Source: a virus. Taken from it: a DNA stretch of 38,606 bases. The notes under the pieces are model-generated. The model worked only from the letters and a program-made list of their open reading frames with translations, made no database searches and was not told the origin of the DNA. This document shows, one piece after another, positions 564 through 33,846 of the stretch (position 1 is the stretch's first letter; the number at the start of each line of letters is the position of its first letter). The position numbers and the translations under genes are program-made. The stretch lies in the IMG/VR virus record IMGVR_UViG_3300015360_002902, positions 1 through 38,606 of that record; one strand, 5' to 3'.

Positions 564-2843
564 ATGGAAGCCGGTGTTAATCCAGAAGTTTTGCGCCTCG
601 ACGAATTAGTACGCAGTGGAAACGTGGATCCGCTGGTGTTCGCGCTGGTTAATCAGCAGCTTGGGAGATGGGCTAGCGATCACAGTCGCGAGTCCGAACT
701 GCTGCGAGGCTGGAATCATATTGGCATTATGCCGATCTGCAAAATGGCGGCGTCGGCGTCGTTTTCAATTCGCATCGCGGATCCTTATGACAACACATCA
801 GATGAAAACGACCGAGGAAAGCCGCTTTTGCAAAAGCATCCTCTTACAAAGCTGGTGCGGAAGGCCAATCCTTGGATGATGAGCAATATCTACCGATGGG
901 AAATAGCTCAACAGATGCACCTTCACGGATCGGCACTGGTATGGAGAGTACGCGACAAGCAAAACTACACCCGCTACCGGATTCCAATTCCTATGGCTCT
1001 GACTGCGCCATTTCCGGCTGGGCGGTATATCGACTGTCTCGCTGGAGGGATCGAGGTAAAACCGATCGAGTCGATCGACCTTGGAAGATTCAGCCTCGAG
1101 GCCAGCTATTCAGGTTTGCGATTTGCATCCGGCAGGCGGATCGGCATCGACGACCTGATTATCTACCGTTACCCGCATGCGTACGACCTTTCGGATGGTC
1201 ACAGCCCTACGAGTGCCGGCGGTCCATGGATCGAGCTGATGGAGAGCATCGACGAGCAGCGCCAGAAAGACGCGAAGCGGGGATCGAGTCCCAAAGTTTT
1301 AATCACCCCGCCAAGCGACGTCTCGGCGTCATCCGACGACTTAGATTCATTCCAAAAACGAATGGACACGCGGTTGGCAAACAACAAAGGAACCGTTGTT
1401 GCGATCCCTCACGGATCCGCAACCGTCGCTTCATTCACGCCAGAAGAAATGGCTTACTCGGCTGCGTTTGACCAAATTGGGCCAGCGATTCTAGCTCTCC
1501 ACGGAACCAGCAAAGCGGCCGCTGGCCTCCAGGACCAAATGACATACGGCTCGCTCTCCGCTTCATTCGAAGCGACTGCCGTTATGGCTGTGCAGCCATT
1601 ACTTGACATCTTGTCGGACGAAGACACCTCGACCATAGCTGCCGAGTACGACGAGAACATAACGATCGCGTACAAAGCTCCAGCCATTAAGAATCCGGAG
1701 CACGACGAGTTAAAGCTCGTAAACGACTTGGCTAGCGGCACGCTGACAGTTGGTGAGTACCGCGAGGCTCGTGGAAAGAATCGATTTGGCGACGCGCGTG
1801 ACGATTTGATCGCTGGCTCGATCGCGGCGAAGGAATGGGTGCCACCAGCCAAGTCACAGCAGAAGTCGTTCGCCATAGGCGCTGATTTCGTTGGCCCTGC
1901 GGCACAACCGGCTGCTACCCAGACTAAAGCCAAGATCGCTGGCGGCAGAAAACGACCCTATGTCATCGCGGTAGACCTCGACGGAACGCTCGCGTCTTAC
2001 GATGGCGACTACGATGCGAAGTCTATCGGAATGCCGAGAGATGGCGCCGTGGAGTCGATGCGAATGCTGTCAGAAGCTGGCGCGAAGATTGCTATCTTCA
2101 CTGTGCGGGACGATGAAGAACTGATTCGAGAGTGGCTCGATACTCATGGGATCCCCTTTGACTTCATCAACGAGAATCCGCTAGCACCAGCGACAACCGG
2201 AAAGATCATGGCGGATCTTTACTGGGATGATCGCGCGGTGTCGGCTGAGGGTCCAATTGTAGATAGCCTAGTCGAACTTTGCCGACGCATTAACGATAAG
2301 GACGTGCGTGAATCCTTGAGAGCGAAGCTGGCCGATCCGCAGCGACCAATTGAAAATGGGTACCTGTATATTCCTATCGAAGGAAAGGTGGCAGCCGCTT
2401 TCAAATCGCTGGCGAGATCTCGAACCGGGACATTACTGGTGAAGGCAGAGACTCACCCGCACATTACGCTATTACCGCTCATCTTCGGAGTGACAGCCGA
2501 AGAGGCGGTGCGAATGCTGAGGCCAGCCGCCCGGTTCCACATTCGATTCTCCGAGTTGAATTACTTTCCCGCGAACGAGGATCGCCCTACGGACTGCCTT
2601 TACCATGCGGTCGAGTCGAGTGAGCTCGACGAATTGCACAACCTCGTTTCCGACAACATGCCGCATGTCGCGACCTACGGTCAGTGGACGCCGCACGCGA
2701 CGATCGCGTTTGTCGCCCCTGGATCCGCCGGAGGAATGCTCGGCCGCGCCGAGATGACGGGCACTGCGTACCCGGTAGATAAGTTGATCTATGAGGCTCC
2801 TGGCGGCGCTAAGGTTGTAATACCACTGCGGAAACTTGGTTAA
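564..2843 (+). CDS. HK97-type portal protein fused to HAD phosphatase-like and 2H phosphoesterase-like domains
   Basis: The first ~430 of 759 residues read as an HK97-family portal protein: HPL..LVRKANPWM near 92, a GSALVWRVRD strand, the DGHSPTSAGGP segment near 212-222 and a KGTVVAIPHG strand. The portal forms the ring through which DNA enters the capsid. From ~465 a HAD fold follows: D471 and D473 in VDLDGT, a motif II Thr in IFTVRDD, and a motif III/IV region with GK and YWDD. From ~610 a third domain carries two HxT signatures, H633-I-T635 and H711-A-T713, the catalytic pattern of 2H phosphoesterases. Portals of this family are usually 380-500 residues, so the extra ~300 are additions. 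An AGGAG Shine-Dalgarno precedes the ATG by about nine bases. The portal call is firm; the enzymatic roles are inferred from conserved motifs. Confidence 0.85.
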   Translation: MEAGVNPEVLRLDELVRSGNVDPLVFALVNQQLGRWASDHSRESELLRGWNHIGIMPICKMAASASFSIRIADPYDNTSDENDRGKPLLQKHPLTKLVRKANPWMMSNIYRWEIAQQMHLHGSALVWRVRDKQNYTRYRIPIPMALTAPFPAGRYIDCLAGGIEVKPIESIDLGRFSLEASYSGLRFASGRRIGIDDLIIYRYPHAYDLSDGHSPTSAGGPWIELMESIDEQRQKDAKRGSSPKVLITPPSDVSASSDDLDSFQKRMDTRLANNKGTVVAIPHGSATVASFTPEEMAYSAAFDQIGPAILALHGTSKAAAGLQDQMTYGSLSASFEATAVMAVQPLLDILSDEDTSTIAAEYDENITIAYKAPAIKNPEHDELKLVNDLASGTLTVGEYREARGKNRFGDARDDLIAGSIAAKEWVPPAKSQQKSFAIGADFVGPAAQPAATQTKAKIAGGRKRPYVIAVDLDGTLASYDGDYDAKSIGMPRDGAVESMRMLSEAGAKIAIFTVRDDEELIREWLDTHGIPFDFINENPLAPATTGKIMADLYWDDRAVSAEGPIVDSLVELCRRINDKDVRESLRAKLADPQRPIENGYLYIPIEGKVAAAFKSLARSRTGTLLVKAETHPHITLLPLIFGVTAEEAVRMLRPAARFHIRFSELNYFPANEDRPTDCLYHAVESSELDELHNLVSDNMPHVATYGQWTPHATIAFVAPGSAGGMLGRAEMTGTAYPVDKLIYEAPGGAKVVIPLRKLG

Positions 2844-2956: not shown

Positions 2957-3196
2957 GTGCTAGTACTTTCACGGAAAGAGGGCGAAGCGATACGAATCGC
3001 GGACGACATTATCATCACAGTAATTCGCAACAGTGGTAATCGTGTAACTCTTGGAATAGAGGCGCCAGGAAATGTCGGAATAGTGCGAGGTGAACTTTCG
3101 CCTCGCGACGAAAATGGAATTATGGAGAATGACTCGCGGAGTCATCTCGAAGATCCGAATGTTGAAGCAAGTGGGGAAACCAATGAAGATCGTTGA
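2957..3196 (+). CDS. csrA: CsrA-family RNA-binding translational regulator
   Basis: The protein starts MLVLSRKEGEAIRI and continues through the standard CsrA core to NVGIVRGEL. CsrA dimers bind GGA motifs in mRNA leaders and block or alter translation. Leu4 and Arg44, the key RNA-contacting positions of the family, are both in place; the usual His43 is Val. At 79 residues it has a ~20-residue C-terminal extension relative to the common ~61. The start is GTG with AAGGAG seven bases upstream. The last 14 bases overlap the start of the next gene, which suggests translational coupling. Its RNA target, phage or host, cannot be told from the sequence. Confidence 0.93.
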   Translation: MLVLSRKEGEAIRIADDIIITVIRNSGNRVTLGIEAPGNVGIVRGELSPRDENGIMENDSRSHLEDPNVEASGETNEDR

Positions 3197-4565
3197 ACTT
3201 CTGACGTCTAACGTCAAGCGACTGAAAGCCGTAGAAATTCGACCGACACGCAACGTAGTCGTTGTCGGTGGCAAGAACGGCCAAGGTAAAAGCAGTTGCC
3301 TTGATTCGGTGTTGTTCTGCCTTGCAGGCGGAAAGAGCATTCCCGATGGCGTGGTGCGCGAAGGCCAGGAAAAGGCCGAGATTGTCCTTCGCACTGACGA
3401 AGGTTTGTTGATTAAGAGGATAATCACGGCGGACGGTAAAGCGACGCTGGAAATCAAGCAAATCTCAGCGACTGGTATCGAGAGTAAGGTATCAAGCCCG
3501 CAAGCAATGCTGGATAAGTTGGTTGGGCGAATATCATTCGACCCACTCGCGTTTACGCGAATGAAGCCTGCTGACCAGATCGATACGTTGCGGGCGGCGG
3601 TGGGAGTGGACACGGCAAGGGTCGATCGAGAAATATCTAACTACTTCGACTCGCGGGCCGACGTCTCTCGTCAGTTGCGTGACGCAGAGGGAACACTGCG
3701 AGGACTGCCTCGGTACTCTGACGCACCAGAGACCGAAAGGTCGGCGACCGAGTTGATCGACGAACTGACGAAGATATCGCAAAAGAACCAAGCGAACGAA
3801 GAAGTTCGAAAGGAAGCTAAGCGAGCAAAACAGGCTGCTGAAGAGGCGGAAACCTGTTTTCAGCGCGAGCGGTTCAAATACGACGCCCTCATTGACGAGG
3901 GAAAGGCCGAGGTCCAAAGAATCGATGATCTGCTTGCGGAAACAAAGTCGCGCTACCGGGCTAAAGCGATATCGCAAAAAGATCAAACCAAGCTAGCAGA
4001 AGCAACAGCAGCGGACACGAAACGTATCGCGGCCGGACTCGAAGCGAGGGGAGAAGTCGATGAGCTCGACGATTCCGAGGTCCGAGATGCGATCAAGAAG
4101 GTCGACTCTGTCAACGAAAAGGTCCGAGCGAACGCCGCGTTTAAGAAGCAGGAGGAAAAAACAGACCTCTTAGCAAGCAAGGTGGAGGAGTTGACCGGAC
4201 TTCTCGAAGCAAAAAGACGGGAGAAGTCGCACGTCATGGAAACGGCCAAGTGGCCGGTTGAAGGACTCTCGTTTACCGAGAGCGGAGTCGTGTTCAAGGA
4301 TCGTCCATTCACGCTGCTGTCCTCGGCTGAGCAACTAAGGATCAGCGCGGCTGTTGGGCTAGCCCAAAACCCAGGATTGCCGGTCATGCTGATTCGTGAC
4401 GGCAGCCTACTCGACGAAGACTCGCTGGCTAGTATTGAGGAAATCGCCAATCAGTATGGCGGGCAAATATGGATTGAACGCGTCAGCACAGGCGAAGAGT
4501 GTACTGTCATCATCGAAGACGGCGGAGTGCGAGCCGCAAAAGAGGCGGAACTTGTTAGTAGCTGA
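3183..4565 (+). CDS. Rad50/SMC/SbcC-like P-loop ATPase
   Basis: The N-terminus MKIVELLTSNVKRLKAVEI is followed by a Walker A motif GGKNGQGKSS (residues 29-38, Lys36), the arrangement of AAA_23-type Rad50/SbcC ATPases. The middle (~140-350) is charged and heptad-like, consistent with a coiled coil. The C-terminal head has a signature-like LLSSAEQLRIS (~378-388) and a Walker-B-like LPVMLIRDGSLLDED (~399-413). At 460 residues it is far shorter than Rad50/SbcC (~1000) and matches the short phage versions. A longer frame runs upstream to 3090, but that part overlaps csrA; ATG 3183 begins the conserved sequence and overlaps csrA by 14 bases. A role in DNA-end or recombination metabolism is inferred from the family. 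Confidence 0.85.
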   Translation: MKIVELLTSNVKRLKAVEIRPTRNVVVVGGKNGQGKSSCLDSVLFCLAGGKSIPDGVVREGQEKAEIVLRTDEGLLIKRIITADGKATLEIKQISATGIESKVSSPQAMLDKLVGRISFDPLAFTRMKPADQIDTLRAAVGVDTARVDREISNYFDSRADVSRQLRDAEGTLRGLPRYSDAPETERSATELIDELTKISQKNQANEEVRKEAKRAKQAAEEAETCFQRERFKYDALIDEGKAEVQRIDDLLAETKSRYRAKAISQKDQTKLAEATAADTKRIAAGLEARGEVDELDDSEVRDAIKKVDSVNEKVRANAAFKKQEEKTDLLASKVEELTGLLEAKRREKSHVMETAKWPVEGLSFTESGVVFKDRPFTLLSSAEQLRISAAVGLAQNPGLPVMLIRDGSLLDEDSLASIEEIANQYGGQIWIERVSTGEECTVIIEDGGVRAAKEAELVSS

Positions 4566-4887
4566 AACAAAGCTCGAACTACGCGTCGGCGAACTCCTTG
4601 ACCTATTCGGAGGTCAGGGGGTCATCGAAATAGACGTTCGCCGTTCAGCGTTCTGCGCGGTCCGAGATAAATATAGTGTCATTTCCTTCGATCCGGCAAT
4701 TAAGCAGAACTTCCGCTACGGAAAACCGATTGGAATCAGAGTTAGAGCGGTGCAGCAAGCTGCGGAAATACTGGCACGTAGCGGCAAGCAAGGCTGTGTT
4801 CAATTGGTGTGTCAGCACGGCGTCGTATCGATGGAGGTGTGCATTGAGGGTGAGAGTCCGATCACTCTGGCGTGCCATGTCCTATGA
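4552..4887 (+). CDS. Hypothetical protein, 111 residues
   Basis: I do not recognise this protein. It begins LLVAETKLELRVGELLDLFGG and continues with an alternating hydrophobic pattern compatible with a small alpha/beta fold, with three cysteines in its second half. The frame is open far upstream, but the plausible start is TTG 4552, with AGAGG six bases before it; this overlaps the ATPase gene by 14 bases, exactly as the ATPase overlaps csrA. The same overlap style places it in the csrA operon. Its function is unknown. Confidence 0.6.
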   Translation: MLVAETKLELRVGELLDLFGGQGVIEIDVRRSAFCAVRDKYSVISFDPAIKQNFRYGKPIGIRVRAVQQAAEILARSGKQGCVQLVCQHGVVSMEVCIEGESPITLACHVL

Positions 4888-4914
4888 CCTAGATGATAAA
4901 AAAGGAAGCGGAAG

Positions 4915-5211
4915 GTGATCTACATAGTGAGTAATCACAACGACACGCTCTCGGCAACGCACGACAAATACGCAGCGGAGGCGGAAGTGAACCGACTGCA
5001 AGCTGAGTCGCCTGCACAGAATCATCACTATTGCTACCGGGAAATCCCGGAATTAAAAGAAGTTTCGTATGTGATTGTTCACCGCGCAGACGATTCCGAA
5101 GCCGACAGCGACGGTAAGATCTATGCTGCCAACGAACTGCGTGCGATGCATGACGGCTCGAGCTACTTTTGGTTCGATGACCTGCAATGCCTGATGCGTA
5201 GAGACGAATGA
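4915..5211 (+). CDS. Small acidic hypothetical protein
   Basis: A 98-residue protein with a GTG start behind a purine-rich AAGGAAGCGGAAG sequence. It is acidic (DDSEADSDGK) and begins MIYIVSNHNDTLSATHDKYAAEAEV, a small beta-hairpin/helix type of opening seen in many phage accessory proteins. No motif identifies a function. It belongs to the csrA-promoter block by orientation and by the 27-base spacing from the previous gene. Confidence 0.65.
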   Translation: MIYIVSNHNDTLSATHDKYAAEAEVNRLQAESPAQNHHYCYREIPELKEVSYVIVHRADDSEADSDGKIYAANELRAMHDGSSYFWFDDLQCLMRRDE

Positions 5212-5281
5212 CAAAGCCATGGAAAGCGTACGACGCCGTGCAGGAGCGATCGAAAACAACTATTGGGATCGAGGATTTTTG

Positions 5282-5797
5282 ATGAGGATGAGAAACGACC
5301 AACCATGCTTGTTCGGCCTGAAGGACGCGGGCATGTCGGCGAGTTTTTCGCCGTGCCGCAATTACAGATATGAGCTGTGGCGGCGATGGGGCGCCGAGCC
5401 AGCTTCCGACTATGTAGCGTTTATTGGATTGAACCCTTCGACGGCCGACGAAGCGAACGACGACCGGACTGTCAGCCGCTGCATTAACTTCGCCAAGGCC
5501 TGGGGCTTTCAAGCAATGGTCATGCTTAACCTGTACGCTTATCGTGCGACGGATCCGGAAGAAATGAAAGTGCAGAGCGACCCTATGGGGCCGCTGAACC
5601 TCGATACCGTCGTGAGGGTAAGCCGCCAAGCCAAACTTCGAATTGCCGCATGGGGCACCAACGCCAAAGAGCTGCACGCGGAATCGCTATGTGACGCTAT
5701 CGGTTTGCCTATCCATTGTCTGCGGAAGACGAAGCGCGGATTTCCAGGGCACCCGCTTTACATTCCCGCGTCTACCACACCGATTCGATTTTATTAG
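5282..5797 (+). CDS. DUF1643 family protein
   Basis: The sequence FSPCRNYRYELWRRWG, then FIGLNPSTADEANDDRTVSRC and a C-terminal AAWGTNAKELHAESLC with GFPGHPLYI are the hallmarks of the DUF1643 family, found in bacteria and phages with unknown biochemical function. The frame opens at ATG 5219, but ATG 5282 has GAGGA six bases upstream and begins just before the conserved part, giving 171 residues. It is transcribed in line with the csrA block. Confidence 0.85.
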   Translation: MRMRNDQPCLFGLKDAGMSASFSPCRNYRYELWRRWGAEPASDYVAFIGLNPSTADEANDDRTVSRCINFAKAWGFQAMVMLNLYAYRATDPEEMKVQSDPMGPLNLDTVVRVSRQAKLRIAAWGTNAKELHAESLCDAIGLPIHCLRKTKRGFPGHPLYIPASTTPIRFY

Positions 5798-5803
5798 GGG
5801 GCG

Positions 5804-6124
5804 TTGAATTTGTCGCACCACCGTATCTCCGGTAAGGGTCTAGCCGTGCAGTGTGGGTTCTTGGCGGCGAGCAACGCAGCCACGGCGATGATTGCCTCGA
5901 GCAATGTGCTGTCGGTCGAGGCTGGATTGGCTGGGTGTCTGATGCTCAGTGTATTCGGGTTCGTGCTGTTGGCTATTCGGAAAGAACGGCAGGCAGACAT
6001 CTGGAAGGAAGGTGTACTAAGAAAAGCTGAGGAGCGAATCGAGCAGCAGAAAACTGCTCTCGCCAAAGCCAACGAGACGCCAGCTCGAGACTTTTTCTCG
6101 CGGTTCTTTCCTCGCAACAACTGA
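5804..6124 (+). CDS. Small membrane protein, possible holin-like
   Basis: A 106-residue protein with a hydrophobic stretch at about residues 12-58, enough for one or two membrane passes (NAATAMIASSNVLSV and AGLAGCLMLSVFGFVLLAI), followed by a charged helical tail (RKERQADIWKEGVLRKAEERIEQQ). The start is TTG, either 5804 or 5810, behind AGGGGG at 5795-5800. Size and topology fit a class II holin, which would make pores for lysis, but no endolysin lies beside it and many phage membrane proteins look alike. The hydrophobicity is seen; the lysis role is only a possibility. Confidence 0.5.
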   Translation: MNLSHHRISGKGLAVQCGFLAASNAATAMIASSNVLSVEAGLAGCLMLSVFGFVLLAIRKERQADIWKEGVLRKAEERIEQQKTALAKANETPARDFFSRFFPRNN

Positions 6125-6214
6125 CTCAACGTGTCCGTAAGTTGCGTCTTCGCCTAAGCCCACCATGCTGTCTTCGTTGACGACGAGCCAGATACTCGGA
6201 GGCTATGGTGGAAA

Positions 6215-6442
6215 ATGGGACCCGCAGAAACAGCAGCAAGGGAACTCGTAAATCGAGCAAAAAACGTAGTATCGGCGGAGCATCTATTCGCTGTAGCCGA
6301 GGCGCACCTACTAGCGGAACTCGATCCGCATCTGGCGCCGCTGGAAATAGTCAGCGAAGACGCGGCGATCCATATCGACGCGCAAGGTATACAGAAAGTC
6401 GTCCTGGCAGATGGGACCAAGGTGAGTCGGCGAAATGGCTGA
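6215..6442 (+). CDS. Small hypothetical protein upstream of the MuF gene
   Basis: Seventy-five residues, beginning MGPAETAARELVNRAKNVVSAEHLF and rich in Ala, Leu and acidic residues; it looks helical in the first half. A GGTGG sequence lies three bases before the ATG. Its stop overlaps the start of the head-morphogenesis gene by eight bases, which suggests co-translation. A longer competing frame (6205-6651) is very rich in Arg and Lys and overlaps the MuF-like gene, so I prefer this one. The function is not recognised. Confidence 0.5.
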   Translation: MGPAETAARELVNRAKNVVSAEHLFAVAEAHLLAELDPHLAPLEIVSEDAAIHIDAQGIQKVVLADGTKVSRRNG

Positions 6443-7058
6443 GTCGCCAAAAGAGGAAAGATCGCAGGACGAAGAAGAATTGGCCGCCCTGTTGCTGCTT
6501 GTATGGGCCACTTTTTCAGCCGGTACGTGGACAACCTCCACCTTCACAGCAAGAGACTTCAGAGCCTTGCTCGCAAATAACGGTGCGGAAAGGCTTATCG
6601 ATCGCATTGTGGCTGCTGCTCGCACTCGGTTTGAAACTGAGACCGGAGTAGTTCCGCAGCAAGCAAGTTCAGTACAGCAGACTGCGATTCGAGAGCGGTA
6701 CCTCGATCGACTAGCTGGGCGGCTTGCAGAAAAGCAGGCCAACCTGCCGCCAATTGTTAACAAGACGGCGTTACCAGACTCACCCGTAGTTCCGGGCTTG
6801 CCGATCGCGGATCACGAGTCGACAACCGAGGCCGTCACCAGCGTCACGGAGATTGTCTCGCTCGCCGAGCTTGAGATGGCCAATCGAGCCTTGCAGCCGG
6901 TCGAAGCGTTTTGGATTACCGAGCCAGTCGCATGCCCGATCTGCTATCCGTTGCACGGGACAAGTCGATCGACATGGTCGATAAAGTTTGCCGATGGTCC
7001 ACCAGCTCATCCTAACTGCCGCTGCCACCTGGAATGGCTCATTGTCTCCATGCCGTAG
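6435..7058 (+). CDS. MuF-like head morphogenesis protein
   Basis: The C-terminal part carries the signature of the Mu gpF / SPP1 gp7 minor head protein family: FWITEPVACPICYPLHGTS, then DGPPAHPNCRCHLEW near the end of the 207-residue protein. These proteins bind the portal during procapsid assembly, and some are packaged into the head. The N-terminal ~130 residues are helical with a hydrophobic patch (ELAALLLLVWATF). It is separated from the portal gene by the 3.3-kb csrA block, whereas the two are usually adjacent. It starts at ATG 6435, overlapping the small gene before it. Confidence 0.8.
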   Translation: MAESPKEERSQDEEELAALLLLVWATFSAGTWTTSTFTARDFRALLANNGAERLIDRIVAAARTRFETETGVVPQQASSVQQTAIRERYLDRLAGRLAEKQANLPPIVNKTALPDSPVVPGLPIADHESTTEAVTSVTEIVSLAELEMANRALQPVEAFWITEPVACPICYPLHGTSRSTWSIKFADGPPAHPNCRCHLEWLIVSMP

Positions 7059-8899: not shown

Positions 8900-8916
8900 C
8901 CCACGGATGCCGTGGG
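8900..8916 (+). other. Short perfect hairpin between protease and capsid genes
   Basis: CCCACGG (8900-8906) and CCGTGGG (8910-8916) form a 7-bp perfect stem with a 3-base loop, 34 bases before the capsid start codon. It lacks a T-tract. It may be an mRNA processing or stabilising element for the highly expressed capsid message. Confidence 0.35.
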
Positions 8917-8950
8917 CTTCCACGGTAATCACATTTTAAGGCAGAAGGCA

Positions 8951-10246
8951 ATGAGCACGAACTTATCCGAGCGCATCGGAGACTTGGACAAGAAGATCGA
9001 ACGGCTTGGGAACATGCTGGCAGACCAGAATGTGGAGATGGCGGGTGTGCATCGCAACGAGCGATACTCTGCGATTTCCTTCTTTGAGAACGGCGAAGGT
9101 GGAAGCCACGGCATCTCCGGCGCTCAGGTGAAGTCTTTGACTGAAGGCCATCGCTTGCCGATGTCTTTCGGACGAAACTGGGCTCCTCCTAAAGGATACA
9201 AGTCATCGTTCAAGTCGTTCACCGACTATCTTCGCCTCGGTATGCGGGACGAAAATGCCTTTCAGGCAAAATACATCGCGTCAACGAGTTCGCTAGCGAA
9301 AGCTTATGGGCTCAACACCTATGAAGGTGAGGCTGGCGGGATGCTTATCCTGCCAGAGTTGGCTCCATCGATTCTTGAGCGGGCGATGGATAACGACCTG
9401 TGGCAGCGCACCGACGCTTACACAGTCGGCGGCAACACGATGACGTTCCCGCGTACGGCGGAAAACAGTCGCGCGCACGGAACGCGTCACGGTGGAGCTC
9501 GTGCCTACTGGGAAGGTGAGGAGCACCTGATTCAGGCAGGCAAGATGAAGCTTGACGAGACCTCGCTCAAGCTTTCGAAGTTGGCTGTGGCAGTGTTCGT
9601 AACTGAAGAACTGCTGAGCGACGATTCGTTTGTCTTGCAGCAATGGGTAAGCCGCACGGTTCGCCGCGAGTTCGCTTTCATGAAGGGATTGGCGGTAACT
9701 GCAGGCACTGGAGTCAAGCAACCGCTAGGCTACCAGCAAGCCCCTGGGACCGTCATTGTGTCGAAGGTTAGCGGACAAGCCGCCGCGACAATTGTCGGCA
9801 AAAATATCCTCGATATGTGGGCTCGCCGCGATTCCAGTATCCCGGTAACCGACTTCGTTTGGACGTGCAACCAGGACTGTGAGCCTCAGCTTAATGGATT
9901 GACCCTGGCAGGAACTGCCGGAAACCAGTTGGTCTACACTCCGCCTGGTGGATTGAGTTCGACTCCGTATGCAACACTGATGGGGCGTCCAGTTATTCCG
10001 ACGGAGTTCAATGAAACCCTTGGTACCAAGGGAGATATCGGACTGTGCGCGTTCCCGCAGATGCTATCAATCAGTAAAGGTGGACTCAACGAGCAGACAT
10101 CGACGCACGTGGAATTCTTACGTGACTTGATTTGCTACAAGTTTACTGAGCGACTCGATGCTCGTCCGCTAAGCAGCGCTCCGTTGACCCCGTTCAAGGG
10201 CACCGCAACTCAGGCGCCATTCGTTGTGCTCGAGACGCGAGCTTAA
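8951..10246 (+). CDS. Major capsid protein, HK97 fold
   Basis: The N-terminus (NLSERIGDLDKKIERLGNMLADQN) is a coiled-coil delta-like domain. It is followed by the phage_capsid family pattern: EGEAGGMLILPELAPSIL, RTDAYTVGGNTMTFPRT, KLSKLAVAVFVTEELLSDD, and a loop ending in MGRPVIPTEFNETLGTKGD. This is the main shell subunit. An upstream frame begins at 8912, but ATG 8951 has AAGG-type Shine-Dalgarno sequence just ahead and starts the delta-like domain, giving 431 residues. The preceding protease would remove the delta-like domain. Position and sequence agree. Confidence 0.93.
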   Translation: MSTNLSERIGDLDKKIERLGNMLADQNVEMAGVHRNERYSAISFFENGEGGSHGISGAQVKSLTEGHRLPMSFGRNWAPPKGYKSSFKSFTDYLRLGMRDENAFQAKYIASTSSLAKAYGLNTYEGEAGGMLILPELAPSILERAMDNDLWQRTDAYTVGGNTMTFPRTAENSRAHGTRHGGARAYWEGEEHLIQAGKMKLDETSLKLSKLAVAVFVTEELLSDDSFVLQQWVSRTVRREFAFMKGLAVTAGTGVKQPLGYQQAPGTVIVSKVSGQAAATIVGKNILDMWARRDSSIPVTDFVWTCNQDCEPQLNGLTLAGTAGNQLVYTPPGGLSSTPYATLMGRPVIPTEFNETLGTKGDIGLCAFPQMLSISKGGLNEQTSTHVEFLRDLICYKFTERLDARPLSSAPLTPFKGTATQAPFVVLETRA

Positions 10247-21589: not shown

Positions 21590-22981
21590 ATGGGAGGAAC
21601 TAGGTGCTGCTGTTGTTTCTGCAACGTGATATACCGAGACTGGGACGGCGACGGCGCAACGCCCGTCGTCGATCCCGATCTTGAGATTGATAACGGGCTC
21701 TACAATGCGACCCGTCGCCGAATGGTGCTGAGCAGTGAAGGGTATATACGGAGCCTCAAAGAGCTGCCGTGCGCAGAGCATGGGTTTGTTAGCATTATAA
21801 TTAAGCTCGATGAATGGGGATCGCTCGACGACCCCTACTCCCTGTACGACCTGCCGTCGATGCACGTTCGCTTGTTCTTCGAGTCCGATGCGGATGAGCA
21901 GAACATGATTTACTGCGATATTACGAGAGTTCCAAATCCAGCTTCCCCAGCTTCCCCAGGATTTGGCTCGCTGTACCTGTTTACGCTGAATCAGATGTCG
22001 AGCGGCGACCCGAAGTTGTTGCACTGGACCGCGATGTACCGCAACGAGTTGGGATTAGACGACGCTGCGGGCGAGAATACCGAATACTGGGTTACCTTAA
22101 GTCGATCGTCGTGCTTTTCTTTGTCGCACACTAGAGGCTGCTTTGACGGATACGCAGTACACGTTCGAGGCACAACGTTCGATTTGTTTGGATATTCTCC
22201 TGCTCGGCGATCACCACGCCCAGCGATCATGGGCGTTATGGACACGGAAGTGGATCCAACGTTGGCCAATGTTGGAATCGGCGCTAACCGGGCGAAAGCT
22301 CTTGCGGATCCGCCTGGCAGATTCTTTGGAGTGAGACGGATGGACGCCGCGTCCACCGAGGTCGATATTGCGCTGATCGCAGGCGGCCACCTAAAGTCAT
22401 TTGCGCCGCCTCCAAGCGTACGAACGAAAAGATGCTTTTTTAGCGATGCTTCCTTCCATGCTCCAATAATCGAAGCCGAGCCCAAGTTGCCACGAGTGGT
22501 AATCAACGGCGCTTATTCGATTGCCGAACCCGACTCGCAGAAGGCGTACTTCACCGGAAGTTTTGGCACAGCGATCAATGCGGAGGACAACGGACCTCGT
22601 GTTCCTTCAGCTCCTCCGTTTAGCTGGCGTCGCCGATTTTGGTCTGGGTACATTTCGTGCTGGCTCGAGTCTTCCGTTTCCGGTCGCGAAGGTTTTGTTT
22701 CGCAGGGAGAATCGACGCCAATTTTGCACGTCACCTGCGCGCTGATTGAGATGGGCGAAGGGCTCGACGACGACGGTAACGGTACCGATGCGTTTGGGTC
22801 TGAGTATCATCTCGACTGGGACTTTGAGACGCCGTTGGCATCGCATGCACTTGCTGACGGGTTCGATATAGTGCTGGACGTCGCAGACGCGACCGTTACT
22901 GACGTATGGGTTCCGAATCCCATCTTCACCCAACTCCCACTTAAGTTTGCAGAACTTGTCCTCACGCCAATTGCCGTCTAA
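21590..22981 (+). CDS. Large cysteine-headed virion-region protein
   Basis: A 463-residue protein beginning MGGTRCCCCFCNVIYRD, with five cysteines in the first eleven residues, then a GDGDGATPVVDPDLE-like acidic stretch and a mainly beta composition. The Cys cluster might bind metal. The downstream region has no motif I know. An AAGGA sequence precedes the ATG. Its position after the hub points to a tail-tip or receptor-related structural protein. DNA at 21932-21966 inside the gene contains two tandem AGCTTCCCC units flanked by the inverted pair CCAAATCC/GGATTTGG, encoding NPASPASPG. Confidence 0.6.
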   Translation: MGGTRCCCCFCNVIYRDWDGDGATPVVDPDLEIDNGLYNATRRRMVLSSEGYIRSLKELPCAEHGFVSIIIKLDEWGSLDDPYSLYDLPSMHVRLFFESDADEQNMIYCDITRVPNPASPASPGFGSLYLFTLNQMSSGDPKLLHWTAMYRNELGLDDAAGENTEYWVTLSRSSCFSLSHTRGCFDGYAVHVRGTTFDLFGYSPARRSPRPAIMGVMDTEVDPTLANVGIGANRAKALADPPGRFFGVRRMDAASTEVDIALIAGGHLKSFAPPPSVRTKRCFFSDASFHAPIIEAEPKLPRVVINGAYSIAEPDSQKAYFTGSFGTAINAEDNGPRVPSAPPFSWRRRFWSGYISCWLESSVSGREGFVSQGESTPILHVTCALIEMGEGLDDDGNGTDAFGSEYHLDWDFETPLASHALADGFDIVLDVADATVTDVWVPNPIFTQLPLKFAELVLTPIAV

Positions 22982-24323
22982 CTACTTTCATTGCATCACA
23001 TGCCGCCGTGAAGCGGTCGCAACTTCGAGCGTAAAACTTCGGATATGTAAATGCGGTGTGCAGATGTCGGCCGGTGCACTTCCAAGCTTTGATCGGCTCG
23101 ATCGAGAGATGGTGCTTAATCGCCGCGATGTCTGCATCAGCAATGCTTGCGGCCACTGGGGGACGCATCAGCGCGGCAAGCACGAAATGGACGGCTGTGG
23201 GTTACTTAAGAAGCCGTGCAGGATCGACCAAAAGAGAATGCAGCGGTGGTACACAGGACCAGAAGGCCGCCAGTGCTGGACCGCGACTGAGCAGCGAGTG
23301 GCAAGCGTCGGATTCCTTGCTGCGTGCTTCCAGCCGGTCGGTGGCACGGAGACATGGCACCGCACTCTATTGCCGTCGATCGAGGGTGCTGGATTTGTTT
23401 GCTTCAGTCCGGCTCTATGCAGGGGAGACCGAAAGGCCCTTAGCTGTTGGTCTGGAGTGGGCATCACAGCAGCTAAGCAACTGGCTGATCACGTAGATGT
23501 TCTCGTGGCATGGGGGCTTGGAAGCGACCTAGGCAAGGTGCTTCCCAAGCATAACAAGCCGCGTGTTATCAGCGTGTCGCATGGCGATGGTACGTCAGAC
23601 TGGTCTGGACGAATGATGAAAGGACAGGAGCCATGGACGGATCGAGCGGTCTACATTTGCCCTAGTGCAATTCAAACGGTTCCAGCGTCGCTTCGGGAAA
23701 GTTCTCTGTTGATTCCCAACGGCGTGGATCCGGGCCGATGCCAGTCGGCATTGAGCAGAGACGAGGCGAGGGGGCGGCTCGGAATACACTCGGATCAAAA
23801 GGTAATCGTATCGATCGCGAGACTGAGTCCGGAGAAACGCATAGGCTTGATGGCCCGCGCGCTCGAGTATTTGCCAAACAACTTCATATTGCTGGTGGCT
23901 GGGTCTTCATCGGGATGGAGCCAGGCTCATGGTGGCGAACTGCAGTCGTTCGCGTCGGATCGCTTTCGCTTGCTGCCGCCAGTGGACTCACCAGGAGATT
24001 TGCTAGCCGCTGCGGACCTTTACCTGTCATGCAGTGAATATGAAGGGTTCGGATTGAGCGTGGCAGAGGCCGCCGTTGCACAGGTTCCAATCGTTGCTAC
24101 ACCAGTGGGTATTGTAGAAATGGAACCGTCCATTGTTCGCGCTATCGCCATTTCGTCGTCGCCGGCAGAGGTTGCTTCTGCTATTGCGGACGACTTTCGA
24201 GATCTAGCGGCGCAGCGTCGACGGGCTGTCCACTCAGCGCAAGTTGTCGGTACACGATTCTCCAAGGAATCGTTCGTCAGGAACTGGGCGGAATTGATTA
24301 ACTCACTGAGAACCAAGCCATGA
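22947..24323 (+). CDS. GT4-type glycosyltransferase with cysteine-rich N-terminus
   Basis: The C-terminal two thirds follow the glycosyltransferase family 4 (GT-B) layout: LLIPNGVDPGRC, VIVSIARLSPEKRI, LVAGSSSG, a loop with AADLYLSCSEYEGFGLSVAEAAVAQVPIVATPVG containing the conserved E.FG...EA donor-binding motif. These enzymes transfer sugars from nucleotide sugars. The first ~90 residues have CITC, CKCG, CISNACGH and GCGLLKKPC, suggesting a metal-binding module ahead of the catalytic domain. The start is uncertain (TTG 22947, 22956 or 22971), all inside the end of the preceding gene. The target (virion protein, DNA or host glycan) is unknown. Confidence 0.82.
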   Translation: MQNLSSRQLPSNYFHCITCRREAVATSSVKLRICKCGVQMSAGALPSFDRLDREMVLNRRDVCISNACGHWGTHQRGKHEMDGCGLLKKPCRIDQKRMQRWYTGPEGRQCWTATEQRVASVGFLAACFQPVGGTETWHRTLLPSIEGAGFVCFSPALCRGDRKALSCWSGVGITAAKQLADHVDVLVAWGLGSDLGKVLPKHNKPRVISVSHGDGTSDWSGRMMKGQEPWTDRAVYICPSAIQTVPASLRESSLLIPNGVDPGRCQSALSRDEARGRLGIHSDQKVIVSIARLSPEKRIGLMARALEYLPNNFILLVAGSSSGWSQAHGGELQSFASDRFRLLPPVDSPGDLLAAADLYLSCSEYEGFGLSVAEAAVAQVPIVATPVGIVEMEPSIVRAIAISSSPAEVASAIADDFRDLAAQRRRAVHSAQVVGTRFSKESFVRNWAELINSLRTKP

Positions 24324-24961
24324 GCCATGTGATCGCAAACGTAATTCGGCAGTGGGATGAGTGTGCCAAGGCGGAAAATGCTAAGCAAATGGTGCATCCC
24401 CACGATTCAGAAGACGAATTTTGGAGCTCGGGCTTTCGTGCAGCGCAGCAAGTCAGGAAATTACTACGCCACCCTCGCTGTAGGGTGCTCGACTTTGGAT
24501 GCGGAGTCGGCCGTGTTTCCCGCCATTTAGTCGACGACTGCGAACTCAAAGCTTATGACTCATCAGCATCCATGCTTGAGAAGTTAGGATTGCAGCAGGG
24601 GGACTGGATTCGCAAGATTCAACTATGTCGTTCGCTTGATGAGGTTGGACCAGTGGACATCGTGTTCGCGTATTCGGTGCTGATCCATTATCCCTACAAA
24701 GCTGGATGCGAAGTGCTCCGGAGCATGGCGGATCTTCTCCCCGTCGACGGCACATTGGCAGTGCAGATCCCGATTTACGAGTTCCGAAGAGAGCCTATCG
24801 ATTGGATCGACGTCTGCGTCTGGACAAAGTGTGACTTGATGTGCGCCGCGTCGGCTAATGGTCTTGTGATTCAACAATGCTGGAGGCATTCAGGCAGCTT
24901 CGGGTTTGATCAAGTGGGGATGCACCATGACAGATTGCAAGTGCTGCGGAAAATCAAATGA
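24320..24961 (+). CDS. SAM-dependent methyltransferase (small-molecule/sugar type)
   Basis: A 213-residue class I methyltransferase: motif I VLDFGCGVGRVSRHL, an acidic motif II AYDSSASML, and motif IV VDIVFAYSVLIHY. The motif IV lacks the DPPY/NPPY of DNA adenine methylases and the PC of cytosine methylases, so a small-molecule, sugar or protein substrate is more likely than DNA. It overlaps the glycosyltransferase by ATGA, so the two may decorate the same substrate. Confidence 0.82.
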   Translation: MSHVIANVIRQWDECAKAENAKQMVHPHDSEDEFWSSGFRAAQQVRKLLRHPRCRVLDFGCGVGRVSRHLVDDCELKAYDSSASMLEKLGLQQGDWIRKIQLCRSLDEVGPVDIVFAYSVLIHYPYKAGCEVLRSMADLLPVDGTLAVQIPIYEFRREPIDWIDVCVWTKCDLMCAASANGLVIQQCWRHSGSFGFDQVGMHHDRLQVLRKIK

Positions 24962-31727: not shown

Positions 31728-32731
31728 GTGACAAAAGAACAAACAAACAACCTGTTGAGCTTGTAGCCACCTCGATGCAGGCAGAAGTGATCGTTGACAG
31801 CAACACGCAAAAGTTGCGTGAAATGCTCCCAGCTCACATCGACTGGGCACGGTTCCGGCGGATGGCCGTCGAGTGTGTGCGAAAGACGCCTAAGCTGAGG
31901 CAATGCACTGCAGTGAGTTTCATTAAAAGCGTGAGCGACGCCGCAAAGCATGGGCTTGAGATCGATGGTCTATTGGGTTCTGGATACATCGTCCCATATG
32001 GCGACGAAGCGCATTTTCTGCCGGGGTACAAGGGCTACCTTCAGCTCTGTCGTCGATCGCAGGAAGTCCTGCGGGTGAGTCATGGTGTCGTCCATGAAGT
32101 CGACGAATTTCGATACGCGCTTGGTGACGAACTATTTTGTCATCACACGCCTCGCGCTGAGACCGACGAAGATATCGCGGACCGTGCGATCAGATACATC
32201 TATGTGATTTTCAAGCTGGAGAACGGCGAAAAGCATATCAATGTCTGGCCGGTAGCTAAGATTCGGCGGCACATGGAAAAGTTCTCGCAGTCGTGGAGGT
32301 GGGCTGAAAGTGGCGACAAAAACAAAGGTGGCGGACGCCGGGACAGCACTTGGCACAACCACTTTGCAAAGATGGGCGTAAAGACGGTAATGATTGATTC
32401 GCTCTGTTCGGGGGAAGTGCCTATTTCACTCGAAGTCCAAAAGTACGCCGTCATTGACCGCAATCTCGACATGGGAATCGGCATCGATCCTCCCGCAGGT
32501 TCGGAGTTGCCTCGCTTTGCAGCGGATGCTGACGACCTGGCGGATCTCATGGAGGATCGTATTGCGATCGATTCGAAGCCTGTTGGGTCGACAATTCGTC
32601 CTCTAGCGGCAGGTTCAGTTCGGCAGGCTGATACTGTAGATGCGGCGCATGTGCGAACGGTCCCCAGCGCCAACGCTCGAGTTCAAGCTCGCTCGGATGA
32701 ATCCATGTACGGCGAAGAGGTGCCATTTTGA
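31724..32731 (+). CDS. recT: RecT-family single-strand annealing protein
   Basis: A 335-residue RecT/Bet-type protein. Diagnostic stretches are FIKSVSDAAKHGLEIDGLLGSGYIVPYGDEAHFLPGYKGYLQLCRRS and YIYVIFKLENGEKHINVWPVAKI. It coats single strands made by the exonuclease and anneals homologous ends. The C-terminal ~70 residues are Pro/Ser/Arg-rich and probably flexible. Starts in an ATGA overlap with the YqaJ gene and ends in a TTGA overlap with the clamp gene. Confidence 0.92.
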   Translation: MSDKRTNKQPVELVATSMQAEVIVDSNTQKLREMLPAHIDWARFRRMAVECVRKTPKLRQCTAVSFIKSVSDAAKHGLEIDGLLGSGYIVPYGDEAHFLPGYKGYLQLCRRSQEVLRVSHGVVHEVDEFRYALGDELFCHHTPRAETDEDIADRAIRYIYVIFKLENGEKHINVWPVAKIRRHMEKFSQSWRWAESGDKNKGGGRRDSTWHNHFAKMGVKTVMIDSLCSGEVPISLEVQKYAVIDRNLDMGIGIDPPAGSELPRFAADADDLADLMEDRIAIDSKPVGSTIRPLAAGSVRQADTVDAAHVRTVPSANARVQARSDESMYGEEVPF

Positions 32732-33846
32732 GCTGCCTGCAAATTCAAGTTGGAACCCTCGCAACGGCGATGGGATACCTAGCCCACTTTTCGGCTCGGG
32801 CTCGAGAGCGAGACATTGTTGAAATACGGAGTGACGGAAAGGGCTCTGTGGTCTTTGAAGTTCGGGACGGATTGCTATGCGGACGCTACAGCATTAGCGT
32901 GGATCTACCAGTGTTTCGTATTGTGATGTCGCTGAGCATTTTGTCAGGTGTGGCCAAGACGGCGGCCGACGATGCTGACGTATTCTTCGACTTTAGTGGC
33001 GGCAACCTAATTAAGGTCACCGCTGGAGAAGCGGCCTACCGTCTCAACCAACGCGTCCCAGGCAAAGAGGTCGAGGACGAATGGAAGATCCAGTCGATCG
33101 TCGACATCAGCGGACCGCTACTGCTTCATTCGGCCAAGATGGTTGCGCATGCAGTCGCGAAACGTGATGGTAGAGTGCCTGCGATGAGAGGTCTCTGCAT
33201 AGATGTTTCGGTGGAGCGTTTCTGCGTGGTTGCCACCGATGGCAGTCGGCTTGCCGTAGTAGAAAAGCGACGACCAGCGAGAAAGCCAGGAGAACCTGAA
33301 CTCGGTACAGGAAAGGCAATCATTCACCAAGATTTCTTAGCGTCATTTTTTGCCACGATTGAATCAGAGCAACCGGTGACCCTGCGTTTTTTCTCAAAGA
33401 CAGTCCAGGTGATCTGCAATCGGCGTTTTGCTCAATTCCCAACCATTGATGCGAGCTTTCCGCCGTGGAGGACCGTCGTCACGGATCAACTGGGCAGCGA
33501 GTCGCCTAAGGAAATAGCTACTACGGCTGGGAGTTTGGTAGCAGCCTTGCGGCAGGTCGTTCCGTTTACCGCAACCGAATCAAAAGCAGCAGTGTTGTCG
33601 TTTGAAGACGGAAAAGCGCATTTGGAAGTAAATAGCGACCAGTGCGGCGCGGCAAAGACAGAGATCATCACAAGCCGACTGGACGAATTCAGCACGGTTT
33701 GCATCGACGGAAAGTATTTAAGCGAAGCCCTTGGTGGGCTCAAACCAGACGAGGAAGTCATATGTCAGATTCGAGCAAATGCGAAGCCAGTAATGCTACT
33801 ATCCGGAAGATTCCGGGCAGTAATTATGCCAATGCAAGTCACTTAA
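32728..33846 (+). CDS. dnaN: DNA polymerase sliding clamp (beta subunit)
   Basis: A 372-residue beta clamp, the family's normal size (~366-390). The three-domain pattern is recognisable: MRGLCIDVSVERFCVVATDGSRLAVVE (the RGV..........A.TD..RLA landmark), FAQFPTIDASFPPW, and the C-terminal LLSGRFRAVIMPMQVT, which matches the usual MPMRL-type end. It encircles DNA and holds the polymerase. Phage clamps of the bacterial type are uncommon. It starts at TTG overlapping recT by TTGA. Confidence 0.9.
   Translation: MSCLQIQVGTLATAMGYLAHFSARARERDIVEIRSDGKGSVVFEVRDGLLCGRYSISVDLPVFRIVMSLSILSGVAKTAADDADVFFDFSGGNLIKVTAGEAAYRLNQRVPGKEVEDEWKIQSIVDISGPLLLHSAKMVAHAVAKRDGRVPAMRGLCIDVSVERFCVVATDGSRLAVVEKRRPARKPGEPELGTGKAIIHQDFLASFFATIESEQPVTLRFFSKTVQVICNRRFAQFPTIDASFPPWRTVVTDQLGSESPKEIATTAGSLVAALRQVVPFTATESKAAVLSFEDGKAHLEVNSDQCGAAKTEIITSRLDEFSTVCIDGKYLSEALGGLKPDEEVICQIRANAKPVMLLSGRFRAVIMPMQVT

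Follow-up and report, generated by a model that had tools for sequence, protein, structure and literature searches.

Why should a phage portal protein carry a phosphatase and a phosphoesterase domain at its C-terminus? Portals are the ring proteins through which phage DNA enters and leaves the head. Their genes are expressed late, the subunits are soluble until assembly, and in the known portal structures the C-termini point into the head interior. The question is raised by one gene in a 38,606-base virus record from IMG/VR, the whole of which we call the window. A preliminary description of this gene had suggested that its enzyme domains are carried in the virion and either heal RNA ends or destroy signalling nucleotides. 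We find this interpretation partly supported. Our best guess, which we hold at slightly less than an even chance, is that the protein serves as a virion-borne processor acting on cyclic or terminal phosphates of nucleotides.

Portal, HAD and 2H domains in one reading frame

The gene is translated without a stop through 759 residues, which comprise a portal, a HAD phosphatase and a 2H phosphoesterase domain (Table 1). Pfam, PHROGs and profile searches agree with the three domains read in the preliminary description, with E-values well outside what chance would give, and the residues named there (D471/D473, the threonine, GK/DD and the HxT motifs at 633-635 and 711-713) lie at those positions. 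For the portal domain the Phage_portal family scores 49.9 bits against a cut-off of 39.1, and the PHROGs portal family phrog_2662 matches residues 83-450.

Table 1. Features of the fusion gene and of the head genes in the window, with the evidence for each.
Feature	Coordinates	Strand	Evidence
Portal-HAD-2H fusion gene	564..2843	+	759 aa; ATG start; AGGAG at 551-555
HK97-type portal domain (residues 83-401)	810..1766	+	PF04860 E 3.5e-13; phrog_2662 E 2.9e-15
Ala/Pro/Lys/Gln-rich linker, portal to HAD (residues 441-462)	1884..1949	+	translation; GC3; no well-placed internal start
HAD phosphatase domain, BT0820-like (residues 463-586)	1950..2321	+	phrog_1238 E 6.8e-24; profile to PDB 2obb E 2.8e-36
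HAD motif I, D471-L-D473	1974..1982	+	both Asp invariant, 42 sequences
HAD motif II, T513-V-R515	2100..2108	+	Thr and Arg invariant, 42 sequences
HAD motifs III and IV, K547 and D555-D556	2202..2231	+	K547 and D555 invariant; D556 in 41/42
2H phosphoesterase domain (residues 596-757)	2349..2834	+	PF13563 E 6.4e-9; profile envelope; AF2 pLDDT 91; Foldseek to 2H enzymes
First HxT motif, H633-I-T635	2460..2468	+	invariant, 21 sequences
Second HxT motif, H711-A-T713	2694..2702	+	His invariant, Thr 20/21
Separate MuF-like minor head gene (tentative)	6435..7058	+	PF04233 E 7.5e-4, below cut-off; phrog_2662 positions 521-706 E 0.0066; CPIC...NCRC C-terminus
HK97-fold major capsid protein	8912..10246	+	PF05065 E 2.5e-27

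An error in sequencing or assembly could unite separate genes in this way, but we consider this barely credible. The frame is open from an ATG placed 8 bases after the AGGAG, and its GC3 is alike along the whole length and like that of the other genes, being lower only in the 25-codon linker. Inspection of the frame gave no well-placed internal start ahead of the HAD domain; the sole candidate, a GTG in codon 426, has its AGGA at an unsuitable distance. An artefact is very unlikely also because the order of portal and 2H domain recurs in three other, unrelated contigs (L014, L027 and L028). What can be said for it is that no close relative combining the three domains turned up: exact-peptide scans of viral and genome contigs returned none for the whole protein or its pieces, and neither did the capsid query and the queries with two portal profiles. 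The fusion thus exists, confirming the earlier observation, and the portal-HAD part of it remains a single case.

The HAD domain

The middle domain matches the HAD-type family phrog_1238 over residues 463-579, and the envelope of the HAD profile covers residues 466-586. The HAD signature of DxD, T/S, K and DD is complete. We rejected the name of phrog_1238, phosphoheptose isomerase, as an annotation error, the domain having HAD motifs. The solved structure nearest to the HAD profile is BT0820 (PDB: 2obb), and we know of no established function or substrate for BT0820 or for this HAD subfamily. A model of the HAD-2H part from the single sequence had low confidence (pLDDT 36); the identification as HAD rests on sequence profiles.

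None of the 80 HAD relatives kept from one scan of viral contigs is fused to a portal or a 2H domain. They are open frames of 108-363 codons. Around HAD relatives the prevailing genes are Mu-like early ones (Gam, DUF3164) and DUF4494.

One use of the two enzymes would be the healing of RNA ends, in which the 2H domain opens the 2',3'-cyclic phosphates made by host toxin RNases and the HAD domain removes the phosphate, leaving a tRNA that can be resealed. We consider this unlikely, though a serious candidate. In its favour, the fusion protein matches two polynucleotide kinase families of PHROGs, phrog_415 (E 9e-10) and phrog_505 (E 2.9e-4), and in the Listeria phage LP-048 a related HAD lies close to an RNA ligase and RtcB. 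The likeness to the T4 Pnkp phosphatase that phrog_415 suggests is, however, remote. We discounted a stronger profile match to T4 Pnkp as partly circular, since a Pnkp row stood inside that profile, and the HAD profile A8, which was built without Pnkp, does not reach T4 Pnkp at E 0.001. Pfam HAD_PNKP matches the fusion protein at E 0.051, which is under the cut-off. Among the 124 neighbours of the HAD relatives, just two are RNA ligases. A Listeria 'phosphoesterase' near a HAD gene was considered as a 2H protein and rejected; its sequence is devoid of HxT motifs and looks like that of a calcineurin-type enzyme.

The 2H domain

The C-terminal domain matches 2_5_RNA_ligase2 (Pfam: PF13563) over residues 630-718, above the cut-off. 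The AlphaFold model (AF2), built from 21 sequences, reaches a pTM of 0.85 besides its high pLDDT and has the 2H fold that the preliminary description had named. In Foldseek the top matches of this model are all 2H enzymes, with a probability of 1.00. Both HxT motifs, as expected of a duplicated lobe, and the predicted fold place the domain in the 2H superfamily.

Which substrate the domain prefers is a different matter. The best solved matches to the model have similar scores and comprise 2'-5' RNA-ligase-like proteins, LigT/ThpR, CPDases, Usb1 and Acb1, and because Usb1, LigT, CPDase and Acb1 match it almost equally well the fold cannot choose between substrates. The preliminary description had compared the domain with Acb1. 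This comparison holds at the level of the superfamily: the 2H profile A9, which was built without Acb1 sequences, matches PH0099 (E 6e-8), Acb1 (PDB: 9q2g, E 9e-8) and a plant CPDase (E 1e-4). It does not extend to the family, and LigT, CPDase and Usb1 match better. The Pfam Acb1 family (Pfam: PF23474) has no match in the fusion protein at E up to 1, so by Pfam the domain falls outside the Acb1 family, although several of its relatives do match PF23474.

Usb1 being among the best structural matches, the domain might be a Usb1-like RNase effector that acts against host RNA with the HAD domain as its trimming partner. RNase action has been proposed for portal-2H and MuF-2H fusions (PMC5512222), but the near equality of the four enzyme matches does not single out Usb1, and we judge this reading improbable.

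Genomic context

The fusion gene sits in the head-gene region, and enzyme domains fused to a portal and encoded among head genes are the arrangement expected of a polyvalent or virion-borne effector. A possible minor head gene of MuF type is separate from the portal. We call it only tentatively MuF because the gene was missed by a MuF profile that combined L027, L028 and L003. The stretch from the portal gene to the end of this gene (2957-7058) is an unusual interruption of the head-gene order, holding csrA, an SMC/RecF-like AAA ATPase (phrog_1499), DUF1643 and small unknown genes. A search with csrA returned only one Campylobacterota gene.

The window yielded no terminase gene, and about 0.5 kb at its start (1-563) holds no recognisable gene; the genome is therefore probably incomplete. 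This also bears on RNA-end healing, for which the context is weak: searches of the window found neither a tRNA gene nor one for an RNA ligase or RNA kinase, on a contig that is probably incomplete.

Elsewhere in the window, a sliding-clamp (DnaN-like) protein is encoded after a RecT gene (32728-33846), a glycosyltransferase and a methyltransferase gene form a pair with overlapping ends (22947-24961), and a Gly/Val-rich repetitive protein with GNVTGGS-like repeats, perhaps a tail fibre, is open at the contig end (37757-38605).

2H fusions in other viral contigs

Portals that end like the one in the window were found as far as the 2H domain is concerned, and none of them has a HAD domain. In L014 (673 aa), L027 (965 aa) and L028 (1057 aa) a phrog_2662-type portal and the same 2H subfamily form one polypeptide. 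L027 and L028 have the order portal, 2H, MuF, and in both of them and in L003 the portal polypeptide ends in MuF.

Further proteins carry a 2H domain of this subfamily. In L038 (2164-6656) a portal gene is directly followed by the gene of an ART-PolyVal-2H protein of 931 aa, a DarB-like antirestriction protein of 2435 residues has its 2H domain at residues 614-777 (L029:3156-10460), and an LPD/ART polyvalent protein carries one in L015/L030. Taken together, these sequences suggest a pattern of early-acting virion cargo, with 2H domains fused across portals and other predicted virion or early-acting proteins. 2H fusions of the predicted virion type are thus recurrent in these contigs as well as in print (PMC5512222, PMC9503650).

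Two contigs have the 2H subfamily on CCA-adding tRNA nucleotidyltransferases (L040:3636-5411 and L043:3666-6776), which points to RNA and speaks for the healing of RNA ends. L040 additionally encodes an AdoMet lyase domain and a 2H domain in one frame of 902 residues with an open 5' end (L040:3-2708), which adds to the predicted early-acting or virion proteins with 2H cargo. The link of the CCA enzymes to RNA repair contrasts with the survey of Iyer et al. 2017, in which the polyvalent type of 2H was never seen with RNA ligases (PMC5512222); the latter counts against RNA-end healing.

In the 2H tree, the domains of L014, L027, L028, L029 and L015 group together with support. The window domain sits on a long branch whose placement is uncertain, not firmly with this virion-type group, so that it may have joined its portal independently. 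The second HxT motif of L014 is degenerate (HAA), which shows that degenerate portal-borne 2H domains exist. By analogy, the C-terminal domains of the window protein could decorate the portal as structural elements that have no catalytic role at present. All signature catalytic residues are nevertheless kept in the window protein despite the long 2H branch, and we think a purely structural role distinctly improbable.

Possible function of the fusion protein

The analysis shows the fusion, the intact active sites, the 2H fold and the repeated occurrence of 2H domains on portals and other predicted virion proteins. From these observations we infer the location in the virion, the release or delivery, the substrate and the order of the steps of the processor that we favour. 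The C-terminal tail of the portal subunit, which bears the HAD and 2H domains, would be expected within the head. With twelve subunits in a portal, twelve copies of the C-terminus are expected per virion. The phosphodiesters opened by the 2H domain would be cyclic or 2'-OH-activated ones, belonging either to a cyclic oligonucleotide immune signal or to a 2',3'-cyclic phosphate of RNA or a nucleotide, and the HAD domain would then strip the leftover monoester phosphate. Riding in the virion, the pair would do its work during entry or shortly thereafter, in line with the proposals for other portal-2H and MuF-2H fusions.

We prefer this virion-borne processor because the catalytic residues of both domains are intact and strongly conserved, because the C-terminal domain has a predicted 2H fold and its profile matches Acb1, CPDase and ThpR/LigT, because the same 2H subfamily is found on the proteins of L014, L027, L028, L038, L029 and L015, and because the gene lies among head genes and the same has been proposed before (PMC5512222, PMC9503650). 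Against it we count that neither a protease site nor a means of release was identified, that the 2H domain lacks Pfam Acb1 membership and lies on a long branch, and that the HAD subfamily comes without a known substrate, with relatives mostly in Mu-like early regions. A narrower version, in which the 2H domain linearises a cyclic oligonucleotide, the HAD domain strips the terminal phosphate and this two-step destruction of the signal is delivered at entry before any expression, seems unlikely to us, if worth keeping in mind.

Delivery is the weak step of the virion-borne processor. Portal rings usually remain in the emptied head and their subunits are not normally injected; either cleavage with injection or action in the producing cell might apply. 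The enzymes might act late in the producing cell, before assembly, with the tether to the portal serving only stoichiometry or localisation; the late expression of portals and the solubility of their subunits would fit this. The presence of 2H domains on predicted virion or entry proteins of L027, L028, L029, L038 and L015, however, suggests delivery rather than chance tethering, and we regard late action as rather unlikely.

If the enzymes do ride in the head, nucleotide-based immunity or RNA damage could be blunted from the first seconds of infection, which is earlier than possible for a newly made protein such as Acb1. The pairing of 2H and HAD in a single polypeptide also restricts the likely reactions to the opening of a cyclic phosphate followed by removal of the monoester. 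Furthermore, the proposal for portal-2H proteins becomes directly testable with one soluble two-domain protein.

Comparison with known systems

The main idea of the preliminary description, a virion-borne portal-2H protein directed against nucleotide signals, is already in print. Iyer et al. 2017 reported 2H domains joined to a MuF or portal domain, for which they proposed the destruction of defence nucleotides besides RNase action (PMC5512222). Iyer et al. 2022 returned to these fusions and proposed packaging and injection (PMC9503650). The words 'phosphatase' and 'haloacid' are both absent from the main text of PMC5512222, and none of the HAD passages found in PMC9503650 ties HAD to a portal. 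The HAD domain on a portal-2H chain is thus the novel element, as far as our searches reach.

The window protein shares with the fusions of Iyer et al. the placement of a 2H domain on a portal or MuF head protein, with predicted packaging and early action. It differs in the HAD domain between portal and 2H, which the texts as available do not mention for those fusions, and in the separate MuF-like gene. The proteins of L014, L027 and L028 are like it in portal type and 2H subfamily but lack the HAD domain; two of them run on into MuF and one has the degenerate second HxT motif, neither of which applies to the window protein.

Acb1, the anti-CBASS nuclease (T4 gp57B), makes an adenine-specific contact through E141 and cleaves 3'3'-cGAMP. 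The 2H fold and the HxT/HxT tetrad are common to Acb1 and the window domain, in line with the profile match above. Acb1 is a standalone protein, of 144-165 aa in PDB entries, whereas the window 2H domain is fused and without a PF23474 match, and its model resembles LigT, CPDase or Usb1 at least as closely as Acb1.

For the HAD domain, BT0820 and the phrog_1238 proteins have the same subfamily and motifs but are standalone. The T4 Pnkp 3'-phosphatase shares with it the DxD, the arginine after motif II and the DD motif. In T4 Pnkp, however, the phosphatase is fused to a kinase and serves RNA repair, and its tie to the HAD domain of the window protein is remote.
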